A DNA stretch of 58,578 nucleotides from a virus, in IMG/VR virus record IMGVR_UViG_3300008107_000057, positions 1 through 58,578 of that record; one strand, given 5' to 3'. The notes below the pieces were generated by a model, which searched no databases, had not been told where the DNA came from, and was given only the letters and a program-made list of their open reading frames with translations. Made by a program: the position numbers and the translations under genes. Positions 51,747 through 58,578 of this stretch are shown here, in pieces; the first letter of the stretch is position 1; every line of letters starts with the position of its first letter.

Positions 51747-51982
51747 AAGAAGATTTAATTGCAGACATCTGGAACTTAATGATTGAGCATATTCCAGAGA
51801 AATCTAGAAAAGATGTTGCCAGTGATTTTGTAAACACATTACTTGACTATGGTATTAAAGATTCTGTTATAGAAAGCCTATTGGGAATCGATCCATACTT
51901 GGATGATGCTATCAGTTATGCAATTGACGGTGACACCATCATTGACAGCAACGACGAAGAATACTACGAAGACGAAGAATGA
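51743..51982 (+). CDS. Small acidic protein between UvsX and UvsY, unknown
   Basis: 79 residues, joined to uvsX and uvsY by ATGA overlaps on both sides, so produced with them in a fixed ratio. A helical N-terminus (DLIADIWNLMIEHIPEKSRK) precedes a strongly acidic tail (DSNDEEYYEDEE). The acidic end resembles ssDNA-mimic or protein-docking tails. No family recognised; a recombination accessory role is inferred from context. Confidence 0.72.
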   Translation: MKEDLIADIWNLMIEHIPEKSRKDVASDFVNTLLDYGIKDSVIESLLGIDPYLDDAISYAIDGDTIIDSNDEEYYEDEE

Positions 51983-52434
51983 ATTGGTACGACAAAGTTT
52001 CTAAGGATATCAGCCACATACCTGATGCAGTAGCTTACTATGAGGCTGAACTTTTAGAAGCAAAGTTGGAATGTAGAATCTATGGCAACATAGAAAAAAA
52101 CAGTTCAGTAATGCCCGGTATTGTTGAGAATAGATTTAATCAACTACAAGAGATTGAAGCTGTTCTTGAATATCTAAACATAGAACTTCGTAGATTAAAG
52201 AGTCAGCACTTTCGTAAATATCTCGAAAGTTATCAGCGAGCATTGTCGTCTAGAGACTGTGAAAAGTTTGTAGACGGCGAAGCAGATGTTGTAGACTTTG
52301 AGAAAATTATTAATGAAGTTGCCTTACTACGTAATAAGTGGTTAGGCATTATTAAGTCATTGGATCAGAAGCAATGGCACTTAACTAATATTATTAAGTT
52401 AAGGGTCGCTGGATTGGAAGACGCCACTCTTTAA
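51979..52434 (+). CDS. uvsY: Recombination mediator UvsY-like
   Basis: 151 residues. UvsY loads UvsX onto gp32-coated ssDNA. The protein is helical, with a SMRLxExxK-like helix replaced here by DAVAYYEAELLEAKLECRIY. The following arrangement (AVLEYLNIELRRLKSQHFRK then YLESYQRALSSRD, then EVALLRNKWLGIIKSLDQKQ then WHLTNIIKLRVAG) resembles the UvsY of T4-like cyanophages. The position after uvsX and similar size to T4 UvsY (137) support the call. The 3' end overlaps the convergent gene by 41 nt. Confidence 0.8.
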   Translation: MNWYDKVSKDISHIPDAVAYYEAELLEAKLECRIYGNIEKNSSVMPGIVENRFNQLQEIEAVLEYLNIELRRLKSQHFRKYLESYQRALSSRDCEKFVDGEADVVDFEKIINEVALLRNKWLGIIKSLDQKQWHLTNIIKLRVAGLEDATL

Positions 52435-53263
52435 ATAAATCATCGTGCGGTACCTCACATGGATGGCCCTGGTAATACAGGGTCATCTCTTGAGCACTGC
52501 CATCAAACCATTCGTTGTGATTAAATTGCACCCATGCAACATGTTCGTGCCATGCATGTCGATTAACTGGCTCTGTGGGATCATTCCAATTATCTAGTGT
52601 GTGTTCACAGGCTACCCAAGTTGGACACGGTCCTAGACTAATTACTTTCTTTCCGTACCAAAATGCTTCAGCAGTAATTGCAGAACTGTAACTAACGACT
52701 AGATCGGCCCATTCAAAATCACCGTCGTCACCGAATACTCCTTTAAAGAGTCCGTTACCGTAATGTTGTATACCCTTCTTGCCTATCTTCAATCGAACCT
52801 TTACATTAGCACCCTGTGATTCAAAAAACTCTTTGAGCTGATTAGACCATACCACTGGATCAACTGTTGTAAAGATGCCTTGACTTTTTTTGCTAGGCGC
52901 AATCAATACATTCTTAATCTCCTTTACCTTCCATGGTTGGATGTCCAATCTAGTTGTATTCCATCTTTGGTAAGACGCATTACCAAATCGTGTACATGCA
53001 AATGAGTTAACTGCAACTCTAGCAGCAAATCTTTTTGTTTCTAACCACGACCCTATATAAGGTCGATTAATGGCAATATATGGACGTTTTGCAGCCATCC
53101 ATTCTCCAATAAGTCCCAATGGATTTGCAGGCACAACTAATGGTATTTCTGGGTTCGCTAGTGCTATATCGTCAACTACTATCAATTGATGAGTAAACCG
53201 TTTCCATCCGTTAATGAACTGTTCGTCGAATTCTCTAGATAGTATTTGAAACTGTTTCGTCAT
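52394..53263 (-). CDS. GT-B/capsule-type glycosyltransferase-like protein (paralogue A)
   Basis: 289 residues from ATG 53263. A GTG at 53290 would add nine residues, but AGTAAATA (53276-53269) ends 5 nt before the ATG, supporting the shorter form. The C-terminal half has VLIAPSKKSQGIFTTVDPVV and DLVVSYSSAITAEAFWYGKK then VISLG, the nucleotide-sugar pocket pattern of GT-B folds such as KpsS/KpsC-type capsule enzymes. The same block recurs in the proteins at 54726 and 56193. Likely role: surface glycan modification. Substrate unknown. Confidence 0.65.
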   Translation of the reverse strand: MTKQFQILSREFDEQFINGWKRFTHQLIVVDDIALANPEIPLVVPANPLGLIGEWMAAKRPYIAINRPYIGSWLETKRFAARVAVNSFACTRFGNASYQRWNTTRLDIQPWKVKEIKNVLIAPSKKSQGIFTTVDPVVWSNQLKEFFESQGANVKVRLKIGKKGIQHYGNGLFKGVFGDDGDFEWADLVVSYSSAITAEAFWYGKKVISLGPCPTWVACEHTLDNWNDPTEPVNRHAWHEHVAWVQFNHNEWFDGSAQEMTLYYQGHPCEVPHDDLFKEWRLPIQRPLT

Positions 53264-53268
53264 ATCAG

Positions 53269-53276
53269 TATTTACT
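53269..53276 (-). promoter_or_regulatory. Late promoter-like AGTAAATA
   Basis: Reverse-strand octamer ending 5 nt before ATG 53263; no SD. It helps choose that start. Confidence 0.5.
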
Positions 53277-53289
53277 AGAAAACTGACCA

Positions 53290-53297
53290 CATAAATA
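53290..53297 (+). promoter_or_regulatory. Late promoter CATAAATA
   Basis: Exact NATAAATA match ending 5 nt before ATG 53303, divergent from the reverse promoter at 53269-53276. No SD. It probably drives 53303-57125 as one operon. Confidence 0.65.
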
Positions 53298-53302
53298 ACA
53301 GC

Positions 53303-54055
53303 ATGAAACGTATTGTACTAATCACAGGCGGATTCGATCCCCTACACTCAGGTCACATTGCTTACTTTAAAGCAGCCAAAGAACTCGGTGATATGCTTAT
53401 TGTTGGCGTTAACTCTGACGAATGGCTTCGTCGAAAGAAAGGGCAAGAATTTATGCCCTGGGAAGAACGAGCAACTATAATTGCAGCTCTACAAGACGTT
53501 GATAGAGTTATTAACTTTGACGACAGCGATAATAGTGCTAAAGATGCTATTAGAAAAGTTAGAAAGATTCATCCACAATCTCATATTATCTTTGCCAATG
53601 GTGGAGATCGAACAAAGACAAATATTCCAGAAATGGATGTACTTAAGGAAATGCTTCATGTAGAATTTGTCTTTGGCGTCGGCGGAGAGGACAAAAAGAA
53701 TTCAAGCAGTTGGATCTTACAAGAGTGGAAAGCACCTAAGACTATTCGTCCTTGGGGATATTATAGAGTACTGCATACGGTAGGCGATAATGTTAAAGTC
53801 AAAGAATTAACAGTCGATCCTGGAAAAACTCTAAGTATGCAGAGACATAAACATCGAGCCGAACTTTGGTTTGTTGCTGAAGGCCAAGCTGCATTAAATT
53901 GGGAATATGGCGGTGAAAGAATTGACGTATACAAACAAGAAACTATTAATGTTGGCGAATGGCATCAATTACAGAACCCAACAGATAAACCGCTGCGGGT
54001 TATTGAAATACAATACGGTGAACAATGCGACGAAGAGGACATTGAAAGAAAATGA
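53303..54055 (+). CDS. Nucleotidyltransferase-cupin fusion protein
   Basis: 250 residues, two domains. Residues 1-130 form a cytidylyltransferase-like (RfaE/HldE-C or TagD type) domain: TGGFDPLHSGH with the HxGH motif H15-x-x-H18, NSDEWLRRKKG, and FANGGDRTKTNIPE in the place of the second nucleotide-binding motif. Residues 148-245 are a cupin of mannose-6-phosphate isomerase type II: RPWGYYRVL, metal ligands H182, H184 and E187 in MQRHKHRAELWF, and H221 in VGEWHQLQNP. Predicted to activate a sugar phosphate and to isomerise or bind a related sugar. The stop overlaps the next start (ATGA). Confidence 0.82.
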   Translation: MKRIVLITGGFDPLHSGHIAYFKAAKELGDMLIVGVNSDEWLRRKKGQEFMPWEERATIIAALQDVDRVINFDDSDNSAKDAIRKVRKIHPQSHIIFANGGDRTKTNIPEMDVLKEMLHVEFVFGVGGEDKKNSSSWILQEWKAPKTIRPWGYYRVLHTVGDNVKVKELTVDPGKTLSMQRHKHRAELWFVAEGQAALNWEYGGERIDVYKQETINVGEWHQLQNPTDKPLRVIEIQYGEQCDEEDIERK

Positions 54056-54729
54056 TTAAAGTTTTTATTGGATACGATCCTCGAGAGGCCATTGCATTTC
54101 ATGTGTGCTCTAACAGTATTATTAGACATGCGACCAGACCAGTTAGTATTACTCCACTAGCTCTTAATAATTTTAAAGATTATAAAGAAACACACATGGA
54201 TGGAAGTAACCAGTTTATCTATTCTAGATTTTTAACACCTGTATTATCTGACTTTATGGGATGGACATTGTTTATAGATGGTGATATGATTTTACGTGAG
54301 GATATTGTAAAACTTTGGGAATTACGAGACGACTCTAAAGCAGTTATGGTTGTCAAACACGATTATAAAACTAAGATGAATGAAAAATATCTTGGCAGTA
54401 AAAATGAAGATTATCCACGCAAGAATTGGTCAAGCGTTATTATGTGGAACTGCGGTCATCCTAAGAATAGAGTACTTACTCCGACATTTGTTGAACAAGC
54501 AACAGGAGCACAGTTACATAGATTTACATGGTTAGATGATTCCGATATTGGCCAATTGCCAACTGAATGGAATTGGTTAGATGTTGAATATGATCACAAT
54601 CCTAATGCGAATCTAGTTCACTATACCTTAGGTACTCCTTGTTTTCACGAGTTTGCTGACCAAGGTAGCTTTGCCGATGAATGGCACCGCGAGCGAATTT
54701 TAACTGAGTATTGTCAACAACGTCTATGA
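54052..54729 (+). CDS. Glycosyltransferase, GT-A fold (GT8-like)
   Basis: 225 residues. KVFIGYDPREAIAFHVCSNS opens the nucleotide-sugar-binding domain, and LFIDGDMIL carries the DxD metal motif (D76-G-D78). SSVIMWNCGH and NLVHYTLGTPCFHEF match the later GT8-type active-site region. Likely transfers a sugar from a UDP-activated donor. Coupled by ATGA to genes on both sides, so made together with the fusion protein and paralogue B. Confidence 0.82.
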   Translation: MIKVFIGYDPREAIAFHVCSNSIIRHATRPVSITPLALNNFKDYKETHMDGSNQFIYSRFLTPVLSDFMGWTLFIDGDMILREDIVKLWELRDDSKAVMVVKHDYKTKMNEKYLGSKNEDYPRKNWSSVIMWNCGHPKNRVLTPTFVEQATGAQLHRFTWLDDSDIGQLPTEWNWLDVEYDHNPNANLVHYTLGTPCFHEFADQGSFADEWHRERILTEYCQQRL

Positions 54730-55529
54730 ATTGGATCTTTTTAAATAATACCAAAAAATCACAGTACGTTGATATTTTTGCAGAAGGTAGTGGTTCTACT
54801 ATTACAAGTTATGATGACTTTGTCTATGAGTCTAGTAACAATCCCATTGTACTAAGAGGCATACTAAAAAAGAAAATAATACAGCAGTGTTGGGAAGATC
54901 GGCGAGATTTCTACTACATGGATACTGGTTATTTTGGAAACGAGATGTCAATTACTAATCCTAATGGTTATAAATTTTGGCATCGTATTGTTAAAAATAA
55001 TCTACAGCACGGTGAAATTATTACTAGACCTGATGACAGATGGTTACGATTAGGCAAAACTATTTCTAAATGGAAGCCACCTGGAAGAAAGATTATAATT
55101 GCTGCACCGGACGAAAAGCCATGCAAATTTTACGGTATTGATTTAGAGCAATGGTTAGAACAAACTGTAAACACAATCAAACAACATACTGATAGACCTA
55201 TTGTTATTCGACAGCGACCTGCAGACAGAATTGATAGAAAACAAAATATCCCCTTAACAGTAGCTCTTCAAGATGATGTGTTTGCATTGGTAACTTTTAA
55301 TAGTGTAGCATCAACTGAAGCAATTTTAAATGGAATTCCGGCATTTACATTGGCTCCAACAAATGCATCAAGTCCAGTGAGTCTGCAAGATTTAACCAAG
55401 ATAGAAACACCGTACTATCCAGACCGTGATAAATTATATGCATGGGCCTGTCATCTTGCATACGGGCAATTTCACACCGAAGAATTGCGTAATGGAATCG
55501 CAAAACATATATTAGAAGAATTAACATGA
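54726..55529 (+). CDS. GT-B/capsule-type glycosyltransferase-like protein (paralogue B)
   Basis: 267 residues from ATG 54726, which overlaps the previous stop as ATGA. A TTG at 54711 is less likely. Shared segments with the protein at 56193 are WLEQTVNTIKQHTDRPIVIR and VFALVTFNSVASTEAILNGI then PAFTL, followed by IETPYYPDRDKLYAWACHLA and a FHTEELRNG helix. The pattern suits a GT-B C-terminal donor-binding domain. Activity and substrate are unknown. It ends with ATGA into the next gene. Confidence 0.68.
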   Translation: MNWIFLNNTKKSQYVDIFAEGSGSTITSYDDFVYESSNNPIVLRGILKKKIIQQCWEDRRDFYYMDTGYFGNEMSITNPNGYKFWHRIVKNNLQHGEIITRPDDRWLRLGKTISKWKPPGRKIIIAAPDEKPCKFYGIDLEQWLEQTVNTIKQHTDRPIVIRQRPADRIDRKQNIPLTVALQDDVFALVTFNSVASTEAILNGIPAFTLAPTNASSPVSLQDLTKIETPYYPDRDKLYAWACHLAYGQFHTEELRNGIAKHILEELT

Positions 55530-56233
55530 AACTACACTTTGTAACAAGTATCTCAAAAAATTATTGGAACTCTACCGCCAAGTATTGTATCCCTACTTGG
55601 CAGTTACCTGGAGACGTAACAATCTTTGTCGATCAATCCGGGGGTGATTTAGATTGGATCTACGATGTTCCCTTCCATAAAGAACTGTTACATGTTCCAG
55701 AGTTAAAAACTCGGGGCGCGGAACGCTCAAAGGTAAGAAAATTTTGGGGTAAAGCATCAGCACAATTAGAGGCAGTGCGTAACAGGGGTGTAGATGAACG
55801 CATTATTTGGATTGATGCAGATGTCGAACAAACGGGGGTGTTAACTGCTGATATGTTTGATTTTGAATTCAGCGAACCGTTAGCAATGATGTACTCTGGT
55901 GATAAGGAAGATTGTTGGGAAACCGGTATTGTTATCTTTAATCAGCGATTTGGAAAAATAAACATTGTTGCTAGGCAGTACGAACGTATATGGAATGATG
56001 ATGATGAATTAATGGCTCTATTTCGCCCCTATGATGCGCAGGTACTGGGTCATGTAGCTGAATCACGCACGTTTTTAAATTTATGTAATTCACCCTGTGA
56101 AAACATAGATGCGCTGAAAAATACTAGGTTTAACGGCCTCTTAACGCATTGGATTAACAAAGATAACAAGCAAAAACTTCGAGAATTAAAAGATGGCTCT
56201 AAAAGTAGCGATATACCACAAGTCGATTCCTAA
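55526..56233 (+). CDS. Glycosyltransferase-like protein, GT-A fold
   Basis: 235 residues. The start KLHFVTSISKNYWNSTAKYC is a Rossmann-like first strand. RIIWIDADVEQTG carries a DxD-type metal motif (D97-A-D99). DCWETGIVIFNQRFG and LTHWINKDNKQK complete a GT-A-like layout. It overlaps the next gene by 41 nt. Predicted to add one sugar of a surface glycan. Family assignment is tentative. Confidence 0.72.
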   Translation: MKLHFVTSISKNYWNSTAKYCIPTWQLPGDVTIFVDQSGGDLDWIYDVPFHKELLHVPELKTRGAERSKVRKFWGKASAQLEAVRNRGVDERIIWIDADVEQTGVLTADMFDFEFSEPLAMMYSGDKEDCWETGIVIFNQRFGKINIVARQYERIWNDDDELMALFRPYDAQVLGHVAESRTFLNLCNSPCENIDALKNTRFNGLLTHWINKDNKQKLRELKDGSKSSDIPQVDS

Positions 56234-57125
56234 CAGTAAGAACCAAGAAAAAATTGATATCCTAGTTAATTATTCACAGGGTGTCAAGGTTTCTGGTGAT
56301 CATGCCGTTGATGTGTATGATCATAATGTCGTGCAGGCCGATGTAGGTGTTATACAGGGATGGTGCGTTCCGGGTGTTCCTCCGTCATCTCTTCATACAC
56401 AGTTACGAACTAATGTTATTCAAAGAATTACTAACAAGCACTCAGTAGGTGTTGACAGTAATTTATTCCTTTATGCTACACCAAATAATCCTCAACATTA
56501 TCTACGCTACAGCTTTAACGATGTTTTTCCAACTCACGGCATTTATTGCGATACAGAGATTGACCCTAATCGTTGGAATAAACTTTCAAGCAATCTAGGC
56601 ATACAGCTAAAAGATTACAGAACTACCGGCGACCATATACTGTTATTACTTCAGCGTAATGGCGGTTGGAGTATGGGAGGGTATGATGTTCAGGACTGGG
56701 CAATTTCAACTATAGACGCTATTAGACAGTTTACAGATAGGCCCATTGTTATTAGACCTCACCCAGGGGATAAAGCAGCAAGGACTTATCTTAATCCTAA
56801 CAGTCATCATTGCAAAATTAAATTTTCTAAGCGTGTACGATTAAGTACTAATCCTAATTTAGTAGACGACTTACATAATTGCTGGGCCGCAGTTAACTAT
56901 AATTCTAGTCCAGTAGTCGGTGCAGCAATTGAAGGATACCCAATATTTGTGTCTGATCCATTAAACAGTCAATGTGCCGAAATTGCTAATACTGACTTTT
57001 CACAAATAGAAAACCCACAATTGCTAGATAGGCAACCGTGGGTTGAACGTCTTGCTATGTTTCACTGGAACTTTGACGAACTGAGATCCGGTGAGTGCTG
57101 GCAACACATGAAGAAGTTTATTTAA
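56193..57125 (+). CDS. GT-B/capsule-type glycosyltransferase-like protein (paralogue C)
   Basis: 310 residues. The N-terminal domain (KVAIYHKSIPNSKNQEKIDI) precedes a GDHILLLLQRNGGWSMGGYD strand. Then come the shared blocks WAISTIDAIRQFTDRPIVIR then PHPGDK and CWAAVNYNSSPVVGAAIEGY then PIFVS. These correspond to paralogue B and, more distantly, A. The last helix (FHWNFDELRSGECWQHMKKF) resembles the end of B. Its start lies 41 nt inside the preceding gene, and its 3' end overlaps the convergent reductase gene by 8 nt. Confidence 0.68.
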   Translation: MALKVAIYHKSIPNSKNQEKIDILVNYSQGVKVSGDHAVDVYDHNVVQADVGVIQGWCVPGVPPSSLHTQLRTNVIQRITNKHSVGVDSNLFLYATPNNPQHYLRYSFNDVFPTHGIYCDTEIDPNRWNKLSSNLGIQLKDYRTTGDHILLLLQRNGGWSMGGYDVQDWAISTIDAIRQFTDRPIVIRPHPGDKAARTYLNPNSHHCKIKFSKRVRLSTNPNLVDDLHNCWAAVNYNSSPVVGAAIEGYPIFVSDPLNSQCAEIANTDFSQIENPQLLDRQPWVERLAMFHWNFDELRSGECWQHMKKFI

Positions 57126-57936
57126 AGTTCTTCATTTCCTTAATCATACTATCGTAATCGAGAATTTCAAAATCAAAATCTTTTCTAGTATCTACTAGAA
57201 TTTTATTAACTGGTTTTGGTCCTTGTGTTCTTACAATAGTCTTACCTAATTGATATATGTCGTTAATTTTCGACAATAAATCATACTTGCTAATTTTATT
57301 TGTATTGTTAACAACATGATATACTCCTATAATTGTAGGAGCACTCATATATTTTTCAATGCACTTTGCAAGTTCTAAAGTAGTAATTCCATTCCACCAT
57401 GCATTGTCCCAACCTTGTAATTCTTGTTGGGGATTTGTTGATAACCAATGAAACAAACCAGTTCCACTTGACTTGATCTCTGGCCCAATAATACTCATTC
57501 TAAAGGTAATATCTTTGGTATTGTTTAACTCACCTAGCGATTTTGATTTACCGTAGGAATTAATTTCTGTATGAGTATCTGATTCGATGTAGTTACCTTT
57601 CTTACCATCAAATACACAATCTGTTGAAAGATGTACTATTCTTGTTTTACTATTTGAAAATGTATGCTCTAAGAAGTGCGGGAACCAGCCATTAATCAAT
57701 GCAGCTCGATCTGGTCGATCATTGCTATCTTTGACTAGCAATCCCACACAATTGATTACAAAATCAAATGCAGTAGCGACTTCACTAAGGCGCTGTACTT
57801 CTGCAAAATTCTCTATATTCATAACAACATCTGCATTGGATCTTGCTAAGGTAGTTACAATATGACCTTGTTGTTTAAGGTATCGTGTAATAACATGCCC
57901 TGCCATTCCATTGGCACCAATTACTAAAACTTTCAT
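57118..57936 (-). CDS. RmlD-like sugar-nucleotide reductase (SDR family)
   Basis: 272 residues. The Rossmann NAD(P)-binding motif is MKVLVIGANGMAGHVI (G7-x-x-G10-x-x-G13). FVINCVGLL and IVHLSTDCVFDGKKGNYIES follow RmlD, and the SDR catalytic pair is YGKSK (Tyr-x-x-x-Lys) in INSYGKSKSLGE. Predicted to reduce a 4-keto sugar nucleotide, probably the product of the upstream dehydratase. The two reverse-strand genes overlap by 4 nt (ATGA type), supporting a shared pathway. Confidence 0.85.
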   Translation of the reverse strand: MKVLVIGANGMAGHVITRYLKQQGHIVTTLARSNADVVMNIENFAEVQRLSEVATAFDFVINCVGLLVKDSNDRPDRAALINGWFPHFLEHTFSNSKTRIVHLSTDCVFDGKKGNYIESDTHTEINSYGKSKSLGELNNTKDITFRMSIIGPEIKSSGTGLFHWLSTNPQQELQGWDNAWWNGITTLELAKCIEKYMSAPTIIGVYHVVNNTNKISKYDLLSKINDIYQLGKTIVRTQGPKPVNKILVDTRKDFDFEILDYDSMIKEMKNFK

Positions 57937-58578
57937 ATAAACTTACCCTTCTTAAGCATTTCTTTAATTTCTTGCTTGTTCATTATTTTAGTTACAGACG
58001 AAAACTCGTTGTATGGAAATGGAGCGCAATGCTGTTGATAACGAGTAGCTAGTGCTTGATTATATCCGGCTGGTAATGTTAAGAAATAATTGTTGTCGTA
58101 ACAAAATGACAACTGCGATTCGTGATGTGAAATTAACATTTCATCTAACTTTTCACCTGGACGCATGCCTGTTTCTTTGACTTCAACAACACCGTATTCG
58201 TCCATTAACACTTCTGCAAGATCTTTAATATAACATGCAGGCATGTTCATTACAAAGGTTTCTCCACCTATACTGTCAATGCTTGCTTTGAATAGTAATT
58301 CTATGGCTTCTTCTAATGTCAAAAAGAATCGTGTCATTTTTACATCAGTGATTGTAATTGGTCCACCTGCTTTAATTTGCTCAATGAAAAACGGAATAAC
58401 TGATCCGCTAGAACCCATGACATTGCCACCGCGGATACAAACAAATTTAGTATAGTCAGTTAGGTCGTTTGCCTGTACGATGATCTTTTCACCCACTGCC
58501 TTTGTCATACCATATAAGTTAATTGGCTCAACTGCTTTATCTGACGAAACATCAATGACTTTCTTTACACGATTTTCA
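57933..58578 (-). CDS. PseB/CapD-like UDP-GlcNAc 4,6-dehydratase-type SDR (N-terminus outside window)
   Basis: About 214 residues visible and still open at the window end; the ATG at 58508 is internal, not a start. Residues just before it read VIDVSSDKAVEPINLYGMTK, the Ser-Tyr-x-x-x-Lys active site of polysaccharide-synthesis dehydratases (SSDKA, YGMTK). Downstream are CIRGGNVMGSSGSVIPFFIE, KMTRFFLTLEEAIELLFKA, GMRPGEKLDEML and a C-terminal SSVTKIMNKQEIKEMLKKG like the family's polysacc_syn_2C tail. It probably makes a 4-keto-6-deoxy sugar nucleotide. Confidence 0.85.
   Translation of the reverse strand, partial: ENRVKKVIDVSSDKAVEPINLYGMTKAVGEKIIVQANDLTDYTKFVCIRGGNVMGSSGSVIPFFIEQIKAGGPITITDVKMTRFFLTLEEAIELLFKASIDSIGGETFVMNMPACYIKDLAEVLMDEYGVVEVKETGMRPGEKLDEMLISHHESQLSFCYDNNYFLTLPAGYNQALATRYQQHCAPFPYNEFSSVTKIMNKQEIKEMLKKGKFI

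Follow-up and report, generated by a model that had tools for sequence, protein, structure and literature searches.

A variable sugar-gene island with KpsC-like paralogues between uvsY and uvsW in large aquatic T4-related phages

The IMG/VR virus record IMGVR_UViG_3300008107_000057, a stretch of 58,578 bp called the window here, is a fragment of a large freshwater phage related to T4. At its end, and continuing in related contigs, an island of about 11 kb with genes for glycosyltransferases (GTs) and sugar-nucleotide enzymes sits between uvsY and a pair formed by a gene named P15 and uvsW; uvsY and uvsW are core DNA-recombination genes. The island seems to be an exchangeable, self-contained set for the assembly of glycans in the cytoplasm, belonging to large aquatic phages of a T4-related lineage and most likely decorating virion proteins, an explanation to which we would give about an even chance.

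Extent and variability of the island

All eight open reading frames (ORFs) that a first-pass annotation had placed in the sugar region of the window (P1 to P8) are present, and its suggestion to look for further sugar genes beyond position 58578 proved fruitful. Two contigs that are nearly identical to the window, L006 and L008 (99.94% identity over 10,386 bp), extend 6.5 kb past its end. Beyond this end, L006 carries the remainder of P8, P9 to P13, a fourth KpsC-like paralogue (P14), P15 and a UvsW-type helicase. P9 is a methyltransferase, P10 is Glyco_transf_7C/GT2-like, P11 belongs to GT25 (2.7e-20), P12 is GT2-like and a GT-A paralogue of P5, and P13 has no assigned family; all five are directed leftward. 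The left neighbour of the island is a UvsY-like recombination mediator (51979-52434, plus strand; phrog_231, 1.1e-15), downstream of which relatives have either an island or an empty site. On the other side, P15 (L006:14706-15905; 399 residues, no assigned family) looks like a core gene rather than an island member. A gene of its size and place persists in the relatives with an empty site.

Short ATGA overlaps had been thought to bind the forward genes into one operon. Such overlaps exist for P2/P3, P3/P4 (P4 starts at 54726), P4/P5 and P8/P7, but P5 and P6 overlap by 41 bp. P1 and P7 to P13 are directed leftward, and therefore the set is not one operon.

The composition of the island was compared in 24 distinct contigs spanning uvsY to uvsW, after merging near-identical ones; this set was found by means of P6 or P1, and the counts for those two are biased. 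A core is nearly constant and comprises a nucleotidyltransferase-cupin (P2, 23 of 24), a GT8-like enzyme (P3, 24), three KpsC-like proteins (P4, 23; P6, 24; P14, 24) and one GT-A enzyme (P12, 24). The other genes come and go: P1 and P5 occur in seven islands each, P7, P8 and P10 in four, P9 in five, P11 in ten and P13 in 13. Among the swapped genes are many methyltransferases, dehydratases or epimerases, pyruvyl transferases, sugar dehydrogenases and an aminotransferase. The parts of the island are tied together by fusions found in other phages, namely P3+P4, P3+P5 and P2+P3+P11 (redundant counts).

A second set was selected with UvsY and ranked by identity to the window (n=80), so that its ratios are not population frequencies. 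Cassette genes lie downstream of uvsY in 54 of the 80, the site is empty in 18, with a single P15-sized gene within about 1.2-1.3 kb, and eight were assigned to neither state. Three of the 54 have P2 or a P2 remnant alone: in L194, L195 and L200, only a P2 gene (246 residues) or a 141-residue remnant of it lies between uvsY and P15, and these are minimal or decayed islands. In a cultured PA5oct-type phage uvsY adjoins uvsW, whereas in a Vibrio phage a single gene separates the two. Parts of the core are also found elsewhere. Homologues of P3 and P4 are adjacent in pelagiphage Mosig, and Caulobacter phages have a P3/GT-B pair flanked on one side by a giant tail gene and on the other by lysis genes. 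In one of these, CcrColossus (L214:3620-6780), a putative alpha-2,3-sialyltransferase-like gene comes immediately after the giant tail gene, and the GT-B/P3-like pair lies a short way further on.

The KpsC-like paralogues and their fold

The first-pass annotation had recognized P1 (52394-53290, minus strand), P4 (54726-55529, plus) and P6 (56193-57125, plus) as GT-B-like paralogues sharing a sequence block. The kinship stands, and the block only in part. Judged by BLASTP (P4-P6, 2e-16; P1-P4, 7e-4; P1-P6, only 0.026) and by profile comparison of P1 with P4 and P6 (two-profile E-values of 9e-25 and 1.7e-25; probability 99.6-99.7%), the three are true paralogues, and P14 is joined to them by phmmer. 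The string TDRPIVIR occurs in P4 and P6; P1 reads GANVKVRLK at this place, and the block in P6 reads NSSPVVGAAIEG, in which the E of the proposed E-A-x-x-x-G element is missing. In IMG/VR loci the family has 405 members, which form 145 clusters at 75% identity. For P1, P4 and P6, and also for P5, no match to Pfam or PHROG rose above noise, tblastn of P1 against phages gave no match, and two pattern scans of bacterial genomes, which reach close relatives only, yielded no fold relatives.

KpsC, WbbB and KrkA are retaining transferases of beta-linked 3-deoxy-D-manno-oct-2-ulosonic acid (Kdo), whose nucleophile lies in a QxxxD motif and whose motif for cytidine monophosphate (CMP) is (K/R)xHP (PMC10148158, PMC12887879). 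Retaining Kdo transferases are described as a sequence-divergent group without further globally similar proteins in the Protein Data Bank (PDB) (PMC10148158). AlphaFold models were made of P6 and P1 (pLDDT, the predicted local distance difference test, 96.1 and 89.7, respectively). With Foldseek, the top matches are WbbB, KpsC and KrkA for P1 and WbbB and KpsC for P6. With VIA-align, P6 is closest to KpsC (Z 14.1; root-mean-square deviation 3.9, 245 residues aligned), followed by WbbB (13.4) and KrkA (12.2); the three Kdo-transferase families thus lie at about 12.1-14.1 and the next other fold at 10.6. For P1 the values are lower, with KpsC at 10.8, all three Kdo families at 8.8 or above and the next other fold at 7.7. 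The models show a KpsC-type GT-B fold for both proteins, and P4 and P14 would share it by homology. KpsC, which the first-pass annotation had named for comparison together with KpsS, is thus the right guess as far as the fold is concerned. A fold foreign to glycosyltransferases, which the first-pass annotation had named as the outcome that would speak against its proposal, was not encountered. At the sequence level the matches are not significant: a PDB hmmsearch gives WbbB at E 0.58 and KpsC at E 0.67, the KpsC alignment being in register with both motifs, and one of 20 members of a distant sister class matches PF05159 weakly (E 0.018). Proteins with the fold of P6 are also present in the giant algal Tetraselmis virus 1, at least four in number (BFVD A0A2P0VP54, A0A2P0VNK4, A0A2P0VP74 and A0A2P0VP72; template modelling score 0.70-0.72), and two of them carry the name capsule polysaccharide biosynthesis protein.

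Active-site classes

When the motif columns are read from an alignment of all 405 members, with counts that include near-duplicate contigs, the family falls into clean classes. The P6 class has QxxxG with RxHP (105/105) and the P14 class QxxxS with RxHP (72/72). The P4 class has mostly PxxxP without HP; P1 has neither Q nor D at the motif columns, its class being varied and without HP. The (K/R)xHP nucleotide motif is therefore found in P6 and P14 and not in P4 or P1. QxxxD itself is present in the sister class (36/37, nearly all with RxHP), members of which occur in 34 of 127 loci and not in the island of the window; HMMER places these two motifs on QVESD and KPHP of KpsC, at the weak E of 0.67. 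In this alignment the catalytic Asp is missing from all four island paralogues. The viral family is KpsC-like in fold, yet here it lies outside the Kdo-transferase families, because their defining nucleophile is absent.

The loss of the nucleophile invites another interpretation, in which P1 and P4, perhaps along with P6 and P14, catalyse nothing themselves but serve the GT-A enzymes as scaffolds or as partners in acceptor recognition, so that sugars are transferred by P3, P5, P10, P11 and P12 alone. Such a division of labour would be compatible with any acceptor. It agrees with the absence of the nucleophile in four out of four proteins, with the absence of HP in P1 and P4 and with the P3+P4 fusions. 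We regard it nevertheless as rather unlikely: P6 and P14 invariably have HP, Q and the R of RxHP, a hint that their nucleotide site is kept. Moreover, many retaining GT-B enzymes work without an Asp nucleophile. Whatever their function, these proteins constitute a large viral branch of the Kdo-transferase fold, with hundreds of members, and the coexistence of nucleophile-bearing and nucleophile-free forms in one family makes the role of the Asp comparable in nature.

Sugar supply and GT-A enzymes

The first-pass annotation described the accompanying enzymes correctly for the most part. P2 (53303-54055, plus) is a fusion of an RfaE-II/HldE-C/TagD-like nucleotidyltransferase (PF01467, 1.9e-15) with a type II phosphomannose isomerase cupin (PF01050, 2.2e-24). 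The two GT-A-like enzymes of that annotation are P3 (54052-54729, plus), with a weak GT8 match (1.2e-5), and P5 (55526-56233, plus), a paralogue of P12 (hhalign, 99.7%). DxD is invariant in P3, P5 and P12; profile comparison of P3, P10 and P11 with P5/P12 gave nothing significant. P7 (57118-57936, minus) is an RmlD-like reductase of nucleoside diphosphate-4-keto-sugars (PF04321, 1.2e-22). P8 (57933-58577, minus) is cut by the window end and complete in L006 (9741-10724; 327 residues). It belongs to Polysacc_synt_2 and is PseB/FnlA-like, with nearly equal bit scores for WbjB/FnlA-like 4j2o (237), CapE (236) and FlaA1/PseB (235), and therefore only the class of 5-inverting 4,6-dehydratases of uridine diphosphate (UDP)-N-acetylglucosamine can be claimed. 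Judging from these families, P8 together with P7 would likely convert UDP-N-acetylglucosamine into UDP-2-acetamido-2,6-dideoxy-L-hexose. The deoxy-sugar step that had been foreseen is thus retained, not as the heart of the set but as one interchangeable module (4 of 24 islands). In 13 related records neither a CMP-sugar synthetase (CTP_transf_3) nor NeuB was found; the host could possibly provide CMP-Kdo as a donor.

Assembly and destination of the glycan

From these elements a pathway may be proposed. P2 would activate and possibly isomerise a sugar phosphate, with P8 and P7 supplying the deoxy-sugar. The DxD-containing P3, P5 and P12, with P10 and P11, would add single sugars in the cytoplasm, and the KpsC-fold proteins P6 and P14, along with the QxxxD class in some phages, would probably add others. 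P4 and P1, which belong to the family but have neither of the known donor motifs, may bind their donor at a different site or be partner subunits; in some phages P4 is fused to P3. The exchange of the middle module, with its methyltransferases, deoxy-sugar, pyruvyl and other enzymes, would then vary the outer sugars. Most likely the sugars end up on a protein of the virion, in the tail fibre or the capsid, and each phage would have its own type of glycan.

A transmembrane scan bears on this acceptor. In 49 island loci with 634 ORFs, a single ORF passed a mild threshold, marginally, and none in the island of the window did. This near-absence of membrane proteins means that export functions are lacking, which favours an acceptor in the cytosol; it also speaks against a self-contained cassette for the export of O-antigen or capsule. 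The purpose proposed initially, a possible alteration of host surface glycans or virions, was too specific. The Caulobacter context, the P3-P4 pair of Mosig and the fold relatives in Tetraselmis virus 1 also favour virion decoration, without proving it.

The main rival is a change of the host surface. Soluble glycosyltransferases would act on lipid-linked intermediates of the host at the inner membrane, the host would export the product, and the remodelled lipopolysaccharide (LPS) or capsule would exclude competing phages. The enzyme families are indeed like those for LPS and capsule, and this is also the purpose preferred in the literature for similar genes of pelagimyophages and bS21 phages (PMC7029224, PMC9723584). 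We consider it possible but less probable than virion decoration: apart from the one marginal membrane case, the islands have no flippase or initiating transferase, and LPS is not the target of the giant algal virus that has fold relatives.

The sugars could also be destined for modified bases of the phage DNA, as a protection against restriction. T4 glucosylates its own DNA, the phage is related to T4, and the island lies among DNA-recombination genes. This seems very unlikely. No match to PF00303 (thymidylate synthase/dCMP hydroxymethylase) was found in 13 related records of up to 327 kb, which are possibly incomplete, while the control was positive in nine genomes; a search for Tet/JBP, run without a positive control, likewise gave no match. 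Variable deoxy-sugar and methylation modules would also be unusual for DNA glycosylation.

Several points weigh against virion decoration itself. Acceptor, donors and activity are all predicted from genes, and with the nucleophile lost in all four paralogues some of them may be non-catalytic. Borrowed lipid carriers and flippases of the host could permit a change of its surface without any phage membrane protein. The T4 late-promoter core TATAAATA occurs on neither strand of the window, against 4.85 occurrences expected, so that late expression of the island would be a supposition.

Relation to known systems

With KpsC (GT107), the N-terminal domain of WbbB (GT99) and KrkA (GT140), their best structural matches, P6 and its paralogues share a GT-B fold that takes in almost the entire chain, the (K/R)xHP of P6 and P14 and the QxxxD of the sister class. 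They differ in the replacement of the catalytic Asp by G, S, P or other residues, in the lack of HP in P1 and P4, in the lack of a significant sequence-level match and in the absence of a CMP-sugar synthetase match among relatives. Group 2 capsule and gtr/O-antigen conversion cassettes have their own transporter, flippase or bactoprenol transferase, and the island has none.

For mycobacteriophages, glycosylation of the virion has been shown, as far as the secondary account goes (Freeman et al. 2023, via PMC12619734). Phage-encoded transferases are common to both cases; according to that account the virion acceptor was demonstrated there, and here it is proposed from genes alone, whereas the present island appears far larger, exchangeable and equipped with enzymes of its own for sugar nucleotides. 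Like the island, the pelagimyophage host recognition cluster (PMC7029224) is a hypervariable, GT8-rich set in T4-related aquatic phages, to which the Mosig P3-P4 pair can be added, but it lies between VrlC and gp14 instead of uvsY and uvsW and in another phage lineage (PMC7029224).

If the acceptor is the virion, phages would have in the island an equivalent of the serotype loci of bacteria, and sugar-gene exchange in abundant freshwater phages would have a testable reason. It could be imagined, though with considerable doubt, that it is a phage 'serotype' locus in which a conserved core with swappable outer modules gives each virion a distinct sugar coat, and in which a KpsC-fold family, split into fixed paralogue classes mostly devoid of the double-displacement Asp, uses a chemistry undescribed for this fold.

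Phage lineage and neighbouring genes

Ahead of the sugar set, the window encodes portal, tail fibre, sheath, terminase, UvsX (named from sequence and position) and the UvsY-like protein. Its TerL is closest to that of PA5oct-type and Phosso jumbo phages (50-52% identity), and UvsY is nearest to the same group. An identity with Moraphage was considered and dropped on the basis of these two proteins. Moraphages are likewise large freshwater phages with several conserved glycosyltransferases, but their published description sets them apart as a lineage of their own, whose hosts are probably Bacteroidota (PMC12619734). In place of TATAAATA, TAAATA-like strings stand in the gaps ahead of several window genes.

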